A DNA stretch of 64,000 nucleotides from Crossaster papposus (Eukaryota; Echinodermata; Asteroidea; Velatida; Solasteridae): positions 2,480,001 to 2,544,000 of the forward strand of contig JBAIAA010000117.1 of the NCBI GenBank assembly GCA_037893245.1, read 5' to 3'. A program made the position numbers and the translations under genes. Of this stretch, positions 32,405 through 36,658 are shown piece after piece; the first letter of the stretch is position 1; the number at the start of each line of letters is the position of its first letter. Below the pieces are notes generated by a model. The model was not told the DNA's origin. It saw only the letters and a program-made list of their open reading frames with translations, and made no database searches.

Positions 32405-33573
32405 GTGTCTGTCACAGACATAAATAACCTATAGACGGACAGCAGGGGGCGTCAGAGTGAAATTTCATGAAAGCCACACATCGTGGGAAAATTGTTTAAT
32501 TTTAATAAGAACTCATTATATATTTTTGACTTTTTTTTTTTTTTTTTTTTTAGAACTATGCAGCATTTATATAGTTAACAGCTGAATTTTTTTTTAGTTG
32601 ACATCAGCTGCGTTTTCCACCGAAATTACCGATTTGTATCCGTCCTCCCGATTTCATACTTAGTAGTCATGCGCAGTTGAAATTACGGTACCTGGAGGTT
32701 GATTTCCATAGGCGTTAAGGCCGAGTTCGGGCGGTCTGTTCTTGACACGCGAACTCTGTTCTTACGCTCGAACGGCGGGAACGCGACCCGTGAACATTGT
32801 AGTCTGGTTGCCTATGTCATGATAGCATAAGTGAACTAAAATTTTCCTACACTAGATATTTTTGATGTTTTTTTGTAGTTTTGACGCTCAGGAATCCAAA
32901 TCAAATTGTTACCATTTTTTCCGATCAGCCGTTTGGCGGCCATCTTGAATTTCAAAATGGCTGCCATTTTCAATCTAGTTTGTACTATATCTCAACTTGT
33001 GAGTGACATAGAGCTGTGAAATTTGTGGCAATACCCCCCATCTTTATGATACCAAGCTTTCAGTTGAAGCCATAATCAAACTTGTATCAAGTGCCCGCCA
33101 TCTTTAATTTCAAAATGGCCGCCATAGTCACTCTTTTTGCACTATATATACTTGTGCAGGTAATATAGAGCGGGGGAAATTAGAGGCATACTCATTTGTT
33201 ATGCTAATCTTTCAGTTTGAATCATAATCACACTCTATCATGTTGTATCAACTTTCATTTTCTATTCCAAGAAGATGGCTGCCATTATGATGCATAGATC
33301 CTCATGAATATATCTAGTATTGATGCAAGTATAACAGTGTCATATATCAGGTTTGCCTGTATATATTTGCTTACATTGATATTCATGTATGTACTATGAA
33401 ATACGTTACATTTGCAGGTACTTCCCGGATGGCCCTTATTGGTATCCTTACTTCTTAATATGACCACCTGAGCCCTCCAGAAATGCCAGGCCGAGATGAT
33501 AGAGCCTGTCGAAGGGGAACGATTTTCAGCGGACTTGACCGGCTCTCTAACGGCTTCTCGAGTAAAGCTGCAA

Positions 33574-33905
33574 TTGTACGAGGAAGGGCCTTTGAGCGTG
33601 TGACGGCCAGGCATTCGTGGGTGGCAGACCCACGAGCAGGAGGTGCCCCGAGTGCCATCCGACTTGTCGTACGAGGAAGGCCCTGTGAGCGTGCGGCGGC
33701 CAGGCATTCGTGGGTAGCAGACCCACGAGCAAGTTGTTCCCCGAGTGCCATCCGACTTGTCGTACGAGAAAGGCTCTGTGAGCGTGCGGATTCCAGGCAT
33801 TCGTGGGTGGCAGACCCACGAGCGGGCGGTGCACGGAGTGCTCTGCGACTCGTCGTACGAGGAAGGCCATGTGAGCGTGCGGTGGACAGGCATTCGTGGG
33901 CGTCC
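33574..33905 (+). repeat. 93-bp rDNA spacer-type tandem repeats
   Basis: GCATTCGTGGG recurs at 33611, 33704, 33797 and 33890, exactly 93 bp apart, with TCGTACGAG and GTGAGCGTGCGG in between. Each unit contains the small inverted repeat CGTGGGT...ACCCACG. A GC-rich subrepeat array of ~100 bp units upstream of an rRNA promoter is typical of intergenic-spacer enhancer repeats. Because 93 is divisible by 3, several frames are open here without any coding meaning. Confidence 0.8.
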
Positions 33906-34148
33906 GGGCCGAGATGAGACGGGCCAGCTGGGGCCTGTTGGAGGGGTACGATTTTTGGCGGATTTAGAGACGTTCTCTCGATTAGGCCGGATGGGTGCGC
34001 CGCGACCTGCGGGCGGAGGCCGCCGGTCGTTGACAGCAGGTGCCCGGGGAAGCGACGAAACTTCTGTCGGCGGAGAAGGAAGGCTGCGTAGGAGTAGCCG
34101 AAAAAGTCCCCGTTCGGGCGATCCGAGGCGAAAAAGACCGAGAGGCGA

Positions 34149-34405
34149 TTTGTACACGTTCCTATGAGATAAGCGAGAATTAGACGGGTTGGGTCGAGTA
34201 CGAGAGCGTGCGCGGCCAAAAATCCCGGGTAGCCGACTGACGATCCCGCGTTCCTCCGATTGCCTCCGGGTTTTTTTGTACACATCTGGACGAAGAGTGG
34301 GATATTTGTTCGGATTGGGTCGAGTCCGGGAACGGGCACCGGGTCCCGATCGTGGAGAAATCGCGCCGATGGCCCCAAGAGCTCCCTCAGCTCCGATTTG
34401 GTCGA
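34149..34405 (+). repeat. promoter-proximal ~130-bp spacer subrepeats
   Basis: Two diverged units share a TTTGTACAC start (about 34152 and 34276) and GGTTGGGTCGAGT / GGATTGGGTCGAGT with GAGAGCGTG / GGAACGGGC following. Two more related starts, TTTCTACACAACCCTATGGG (34422) and TTTGTACACGACCTATGGAG (34508), bracket the promoter motif. Confidence 0.55.
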
Positions 34406-34476
34406 CCCTTTTTGTGTCCGGTTTCTACACAACCCTATGGGACGAGCCTAAATGGGGGCCATCGCGTTGGTGTGGC

Positions 34477-34490
34477 TATATATAAGGGGG
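34477..34490 (+). promoter_or_regulatory. candidate RNA polymerase I core promoter
   Basis: TATATATAAGGGGG lies at the transition from spacer repeats to the GC-rich 5' spacer, about 935 bp upstream of the 18S start. A TATA-like motif running into a G stretch marks the Pol I start site in several eukaryotic groups. I therefore place transcription start near 34484-34487, reading toward 18S. Lineage-specific Pol I promoters vary greatly, so this rests on position and motif only. Confidence 0.5.
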
Positions 34491-35421
34491 CAGGTGGTCA
34501 GGCGAAGGTTTGTACACGACCTATGGAGCGGATCACCACTCGGACTGTCCCCCGTCGCACACCCGTCGTCCGATCGGTGTGGGATGCATCCGGATTGGTT
34601 CTCGATACTCTGGGTTGGCTCACCTGGGTTGGCGACAGAACCGAGAGCTGGCCCGTGGCTGCGGTGCCCTGGCTTCCGGAGAGCGAGGCGGAGCGGGGGA
34701 TGATTTCCCTGCCCGACTCCGCGTCCCCGCCGACCTGTCGCGCCCAACCCGGGCGGTGAGAAGCGAGCGACCGACCGCGCCCGCAGCTGCGGTGCCCGGA
34801 GAGTTGAAGCAAGTGGGATGGGGGATTTTTTTCCCTCCGCCCGCCAAACCTGTCGTGCCCTTTCGAGGCACTCGGACAGGCCCGCCACAGTGCGATGGGA
34901 TCGCCGTGGCCGGCCCGCCCGCACCGCCCGCGCCCGCTTTGCGGCGCGGAGCGGGCCCGCCACGACATCCCGCCGGGCTCCCGGAACCCATGGCAATCAG
35001 AGCGGCCGCGCGGGCCGTCGAGACGCGGGAAGCCAAGACCCTCCCGCTCTCGCCAGCCGAGCGGCACCTATTTCGAACGCCCGCCGCAGTATCGCGGCGG
35101 GCGGTAGCAAGTTCCCCAGGCGGGGCGCCAAGCCGCAGCCCAGGCGGCGGAACGGGCGGCGGGCAGCAGCCCGCCCCGGAGCGGACCGAGGCGGCCCACC
35201 CTCTTCTGAGGGCTGGCCCTCTCAGACCGCCGGATTGAGACGAGAGGAGGCGGCGGAGGAGGCTCCCGGGTCCCTTAGCCCGGTCACGATGCCTCCGAGA
35301 GAGAGTGAGTGTTCGGATGAAGTACACCGGCGCCGCAGGCCCGGCAGCTGCGGCGGGTCCGGCCGGAGAGCGGCGGGCCCACGCGCGTGGGTAAGCCCGC
35401 CCACCCAGGCCCCAAGGGGGC
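34491..35421 (+). other. 5' external transcribed spacer (captured)
   Basis: About 930 bp of very GC-rich sequence ends exactly where 18S begins. It has long chance open frames on both strands, as expected from GC richness. No protein homology is visible. It should be annotated as rDNA spacer, not as genes. Confidence 0.75.
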
Positions 35422-36030
35422 TACCTGGTTGATCCTGCCAGTAGTCATATGCTTGTCTCAAAGATTAAGCCATGCATGTATAAGTAAAAGCTTTTACAAG
35501 CAAAACTGCGGATGGCTCATTAAATCAGTTATGGTTCCTTGGAGCGCATCCCCCTACATGGATAACTGTGGTAATTCTAGAGCTAATACATGCCAGCAAG
35601 CGCCGACCTTACGGGAGGCGTGCTTTTATTAGGAACAAGACCAACCCGGGCTCGTCCCGGCTCCGTTGGTGAACTCTGGATAACCTGGCCGATCGCACGG
35701 TCTTCGCACCGGCGACGGATCCTTCGAATGTCTGCCCTATCAACTTTCGATGGTACGTTATGCGCCTACCATGGTCGTAACGGGTAACGGAGAATCAGGG
35801 TTCGATTCCGGAGAGGGAGCTTGTGAAACGGCTACCACACCCAAGGAAGGCAGCAGGCGCGCAAATTACCCACTCCCGACACGGGGAGGTAGTGACGAAA
35901 AATTGCAATACAGGAATTTTTCGAGGCCCTGTAATTGGAATGAGTACACTTTAAATCCTTTAACGAGGATCTATTGGAGGGCAAGTCTGGTGCCAGCAGC
36001 CGCGGTAATTCCAGCTCCAATAGCGTATAT
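35422..36030 (+). rRNA. 5' fragment (about 609 nt) of 18S rRNA, truncated and decayed
   Basis: It starts with TACCTGGTTGATCCTGCCAG, the universal beginning of eukaryotic small-subunit rRNA, and continues collinearly through GATAACTGTGGTAATTCTAG and GCCAGCAGCCGCGGTAATTC to AATAGCGTATAT. It then stops abruptly and joins the right arm of the TIR element at about 36031. Some positions that are nearly invariant in eukaryotes differ: 35821 and 35824 in what should be GAGCCTGAGAAACGG, and 35840 in CACATCCAAGG. Roughly two thirds of 18S is missing, so this cannot give a functional rRNA. Confidence 0.95.
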
Positions 36031-36658
36031 CAAAATAGAGTGAAATGGCGGCCATTTTGAAATTTCAAGATGGCGGGCACTTGATACAAGTTTAATAATG
36101 GCTTCAACTGAAACCTTGGTATCGTAAACATGGGTATTGCCACTTATTTCACAGCTCTATGTCACCCACAAGTTGAGATATAGTACAAACTAAATTGAAT
36201 ATGGCGGCCATTTTGAAATTCAAGATGGCGGAAACTTGATACAAGTTCAATTATGGTTTATACTGAAAGCTTGGTATCATAAACATGGGTATTGCCACCA
36301 ATTTCACAGCTCTATGTCACCCACAAGTTGAGATATAATGTAAACTATATTCAAAATGGTACTAGCCATTTTGAAATTCAAGATGGCCGCCAAACGGCTG
36401 ATCGGAAAAAATGGTAACAATTTGATTTGGATTCCTGAGCGTCAAAACTACAAAAAAACATCAAAAATTTCTAGTGTAGGAAAATTTTAGTTAAATAACA
36501 CAAGTAACCATACTATTGCACTCGGAACAAGAACACACACCACCTATCCACCAGGGTTTTGCAAGAACAAGTTACGCGTGTCAAGAATAGACCGCCCGAA
36601 CTCGGCATAATTGTCCGTCTATAGGTACGGGTACGTTATTTATGTCTGTGGTGTATGT

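Follow-up and report, generated by a model that had tools for sequence, protein, structure and literature searches.

A putative terminal inverted repeat transposon with a ribosomal DNA interior in the genome of Crossaster papposus

Results

Analysis of a 64,000-nucleotide stretch of the Crossaster papposus genome (Echinodermata; Asteroidea; NCBI GenBank assembly GCA_037893245.1, contig JBAIAA010000117.1, positions 2,480,001 to 2,544,000 of the forward strand; the whole stretch is hereafter the window, and all positions are given within it) identified an element of 4,238 bp at 32413–36650. This element is probably a single non-autonomous cut-and-paste DNA transposon that is bounded by terminal inverted repeats (TIRs) and has the head of a ribosomal DNA (rDNA) unit as its interior. 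It is read as one unit, rDNA included, because no inner TIR was found where its arms meet the rDNA and because its outer flanks match each other. An earlier note on this DNA had proposed one TIR-bounded unit enclosing rDNA, and this part of its proposal is supported, with 8 bp flanks that agree at 7/8 and no inner TIR.

The outermost sequence of the element is a 16 bp TIR, CACAGACATAAATAAC, located at 32413–32428 on the + strand and as an exact inverted copy (16/16) at 36635–36650 on the − strand. Scanning the window for this motif with up to three mismatches returned four matches, where the exact ones were the two element ends alone and the other two, at 11061 and 47380, had three mismatches each; the shuffle mean for matches at this threshold was 1.36. 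A second inverted block of 13 bp, CTATAGACGGACA, occurs in the window solely at 32429–32441 (+) and 36612–36624 (−), abutting the TIR on the left and lying 10 bases further in from it on the right. Immediately outside the TIRs, the left flank GTGTCTGT (32405–32412) and the right flank GTGTATGT (36651–36658) are identical at seven of eight positions, an agreement that occurs among random pairs of 8-mers from the window with a frequency of 0.00073, and comparison of other flank lengths gave 3/4, 0/5, 4/6, 0/7, 0/9, 6/10 and 0/11. An 8 bp target-site duplication that had acquired one later mutation would look like these candidate repeats. Matching 8 bp flanks imply that the two outer ends were inserted together and say nothing on whether the rDNA was inside by then.

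Long inverted arms lie between these ends and the rDNA. The arm cores (32834–32962, +; 36364–36492, −) are identical in inverted orientation at 128 of 129 positions, and exact inverted matching between the two arms reaches 105 nt, in comparison to a maximum of 14 in 200 dinucleotide shuffles. Both the 129 bp block with a single mismatch and the matching outermost sequences that the earlier note had reported were thus borne out, the latter by the exact 16 bp TIR. A further inverted block of 44 bp (32720–32763, +; 36563–36606, −) had 42 identities, one mismatch and two gaps (89% ungapped), while the arm blocks compared outside the core gave 92/98, 88/102 and, for the third, 104 identities with 12 mismatches and 16 gap positions. 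Repeat comparison also identified subterminal repeats of approximately 155 bp, with about 2.2 copies in the right arm (36031–36387, −) and about two in the left arm (32934–33285, +), where divergence grows inward. The left arm is not a plain mirror of the right, as alignment of the arms and end sequences left approximately 270 additional bases at about 32442–32715 (limits by eye). This segment is T-rich, contains a run of 21 T and may be a nested insertion.

The arms enclose a single contiguous block of rDNA, approximately 2.5 kb long, that runs from intergenic spacer (IGS) through the 5' external transcribed spacer (ETS) to nucleotide 609 of the 18S gene. The 18S sequence (35422–36030, +) was recognised by Rfam SSU_rRNA_eukarya (RF01960; 565 bits), with the match beginning at model position 1 at 35422. 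As the whole-window Rfam run extended this match to 36466, inside the right arm, the 18S end was taken instead from alignment with other 18S sequences, in which matching ends after 36030 and leaves 609 nt of 18S. The cut at 36030 leads straight into a copy of the arm tandem repeat and not into a terminus. At Rfam gathering scores this was the single rRNA match in the 64 kb, indicating that the element is not flanked by an rDNA array.

Upstream of the 18S gene, a GC-rich stretch of about 930 nt (34491–35421, +) is presumed to be the 5' ETS from its position between the 18S and the motif TATATATAAGGGGG (34477–34490, +), a promoter-like sequence by what we take to be its likeness to the RNA polymerase I (Pol I) promoters of other organisms. 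From contiguity with the ETS and 18S we infer that 33486–34476 (+) is rDNA spacer, within which a 93 bp tandem array occupies 33576–33900; since 33486–33548 resembles 33904–33978, spacer-type sequence extends at least to 33486. The left junction between arm and rDNA lies within 33286–33485, where GC content is 0.30 in the 33300 bin and climbs to 0.47 in the 33400 bin, and an open reading frame (ORF) crossing it had no match at an E value of 0.01 or better among 3069 protein candidates. The earlier note's description of arms enclosing spacer repeats, 5' ETS and 609 nt of 18S stands, with the ETS as a presumed one, and the mobile Pol I promoter it raised is kept here as a promoter-like motif.

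The ratio of observed to expected CpG, and that of TpG+CpA, was compared between the rDNA and its surroundings. Values (CpG/TpG+CpA) were 1.16/0.86 for the spacer, 0.99/0.92 for the ETS and 0.97/0.95 for the 18S, in comparison to 0.89/1.20 and 0.81/1.26 for the two arms and 1.00/1.20 and 0.83/1.28 for the two flanks. These values hint that the rDNA block has been exposed to CpG decay in place for a shorter time, and is younger there, than the sequence around it, with its higher GC content as a confounder. The 18S fragment was also compared with six records from prokaryote assemblies, evidently eukaryotic contamination, of which one (L006), covering the last 58 nt alone, was dropped. The element differed at 43 of the 422 columns that are invariant among the other five sequences, a set too small and too distant for gauging decay. 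When each of the five was left out in turn and compared with the remaining four, it differed at 1/423, 0/422, 22/444, 3/425 and 96/518 columns, where the element had 44, 43, 56, 44 and 68 differences, respectively, and a difference of clade can explain these column differences. Changes at 35511, 35821 and 35824 fall at sites where the five sequences do not vary and the Rfam consensus has upper-case letters, which hints at a degree of drift and speaks against an entirely fresh copy.

Superfamily placement is a guess and is perhaps hAT- or P-like. The hAT superfamily generates 8 bp target duplications and has TIRs starting with YARNG; the P superfamily also generates 8 bp duplications and its autonomous relatives encode a P/THAP-type transposase. 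The 8 bp flanks of the present element agree at 7/8. The TTAA duplication of piggyBac elements was not seen in the flanks GTGTCTGT and GTGTATGT. None of the 10 ORFs of at least 120 amino acids inside the element matched a Pfam family at an E value of 0.001, and a missing transposase domain is expected for a non-autonomous element.

Other repetitive sequences in the window

The window contains several other repeats and elements. A Helitron-type element at 41105–50673 (+) encodes OTU protease, PHD finger, Helitron_like_N, PIF1 helicase and endonuclease domains across four ORFs. Relatives were found in scallop, hemichordate and oyster in a search with a Helitron ORF that scored just the 7995 candidates sharing most words, and the best named relatives among the best 120 of 223 were from Argopecten irradians (59%) and Ptychodera flava (57%). 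The Helitron ORFs are closely followed, on their downstream side, by an array of approximately 131 copies of the 15-mer TCTCATCGAGCAGAC (51165–53126; 99% matches), in which several frames are open. A Gypsy-type long terminal repeat retrotransposon polyprotein is open for 1421 amino acids at 59321–63586 (−). Its matches (86 proteins) included Patiria, Strongylocentrotus, Holothuria, Diadema and Lytechinus at 50–66%, with further matches to Priapulus (56%), Solemya (48%) and a moth (27%), and the best named were mostly echinoderm. Together with the Helitron matches, they point to a host among the echinoderms or other marine invertebrates.

At 11689–14163 (−), a reverse transcriptase ORF (RVT_1; 11689–12954) and an adjoining ORF without a Pfam match (13024–14163) are probably one broken non-LTR retrotransposon. 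Positions 1–10318 are occupied by dense satellite-like arrays, with periods of 145, 175 and 322 bp, in which GTGACGTCA motifs occur; at 9907–10318 the unit is self-complementary and about 63 bp long. Two inverted-repeat pairs, at 17158–17618 (106 nt, 94%) and 27427–27633 (65 nt, 91%), are possible miniature inverted-repeat transposable elements (MITEs).

Discussion

The structure described above could also have arisen without a single transposon enclosing rDNA. The alternative named in the earlier note, that the arms are two independent complete MITEs, is disfavoured, since a search of either junction between arm and rDNA with up to three mismatches found no inner TIR adjoining the rDNA. In a weaker form, a dispersed rDNA fragment would have been flanked by separate insertions of two oppositely oriented elements of the same family, whose inner ends decayed afterwards, an explanation that agrees with the unequal arm lengths and with an arm identity that varies from block to block. 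We regard this as unlikely, as no inner TIR is detectable at the same threshold, the outer ends share an 8 bp repeat (7/8) that is unexpected from separate insertions, and the 18S is joined to an arm repeat and not to a terminus. Insertion of a transposon into an ordinary rDNA unit would also place rDNA next to TIRs, but here the rDNA is inside the TIRs and not outside them, and with no other rRNA in the window at Rfam gathering scores this explanation can practically be set aside. Finally, rDNA and inverted repeats are common causes of misassembly, and a pile of rDNA reads may have been falsely joined to a repeat element. Such an artefact would need two independent chimeric joins; both junctions lie inside the arms, and the rDNA is contained in a TIR-bounded unit whose flanks resemble a target duplication; we therefore consider it very improbable.

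A single element is itself compatible with more than one history. The rDNA may have been copied into an already inserted element in place, through break repair with rDNA as template, and never have moved with the element as cargo. Since this history falls within the single-element reading, the likelihoods of the two overlap; we view it as a real, if tentative, possibility. It agrees with the one copy observed, with a CpG-rich interior set between arms and flanks that are richer in TpG+CpA, and also with the target duplication, which speaks for the outer ends alone. No observation made here counts directly against this history.

Several observations count against a single transposon with rDNA cargo. 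The candidate target duplication is imperfect, with one mismatch in a low-complexity motif, and its GT-richness calls for some caution. The start of the TIR, CACAG, departs from the hAT YARNG at the third position, in addition to the duplication being 7/8. The difference in arm length amounts to approximately 250–450 bp, according to the position taken for the left junction, and one segment of the left arm has no clear counterpart in the right. No cut-and-paste transposase domain was detected in the 18 of 30 ORFs of at least 120 amino acids that were scanned with Pfam (10 inside the element and eight elsewhere in the window). A second copy was not seen either: an arm 24-mer, the end motif and a spacer 19-mer each gave 0 stretches in viral_contigs, a collection that is not expected to include the host and in which its records may be missing, and a conserved 18S stretch likewise gave 0 stretches there.

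If the single transposon is accepted, a transposase supplied in trans from elsewhere, belonging to a superfamily that duplicates 8 bp, would have recognised the outer ends. The rDNA could have been taken up through abortive or aberrant gap repair with rDNA as the template, or alternatively through the fusion of two copies residing in one rDNA unit with loss of their inner ends. The block so captured would include the Pol I promoter. A stronger proposal is that the element belongs to a multi-copy family whose Pol I promoter works and which also carries spacer repeats, the ETS and the head of the 18S, where each insertion would bring new nucleolar-type transcription and rDNA homology to its site; this appears doubtful at best.

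There is debate over the way in which rDNA moves between chromosomes, and one study in Lepidoptera came down on the side of satellite-mediated homology rather than mobile elements (PMC10257491). A TIR element with a contiguous block from spacer to 18S would, if true, provide rDNA dispersal with a concrete vehicle. It would also make it possible to examine whether a Pol I promoter that stands alone outside an array is active or draws in the nucleolus. If no other copy exists, the element would represent a single capture event of modest interest.

Comparison with known systems

The closest known system is Pokey of Daphnia, a TIR transposon of the piggyBac superfamily that carries a repeat of approximately 200 bp derived from the IGS and one of approximately 50 bp derived from the second internal transcribed spacer, in two to five copies (PMC3849761). 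In both Pokey families, the IGS-derived repeats seem to undergo concerted evolution with the rDNA of the host (PMC3849761). Pokey thus resembles the element described here in being a TIR DNA transposon that bears sequence derived from host rDNA. It differs in duplicating TTAA and inserting at a specific site in 28S genes, where the C. papposus element has an 8 bp flanking repeat, and in carrying short spacer repeats in noncoding sequence 5' of a transposase gene. The element here has instead a contiguous spacer-ETS-18S cargo and no transposase domain in its 10 ORFs. The earlier note had called capture of an rDNA promoter-to-18S block unusual, a view that is tempered because Pokey transposons already hold rDNA spacer sequence (PMC3849761). 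No report of a contiguous spacer-to-18S block, or of a Pol I promoter with 18S, in a TIR element was recognised among the titles and abstract openings of the open-access literature searched.

Pack-TYPE elements (Pack-MULE, Pack-CACTA and others) are likewise defined by captured host DNA inside TIRs, an arrangement also seen here. For Pack-CACTA, a review describes the loss of inner TIRs between neighbouring elements, after which the outer ends enclose host DNA (PMC8616336), and this route could yield the structure observed in the window. As treated in that review, Pack-TYPE elements are found in plants, mainly as MULE, CACTA and Harbinger, and the cargo discussed is host genes, whereas the present element has rDNA cargo and lies in an animal genome.

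With MITEs and non-autonomous hAT or P elements, the C. papposus element shares TIRs, a candidate 8 bp duplication and subterminal repeats as general family features, and it differs from them in having an interior of host-derived rDNA.

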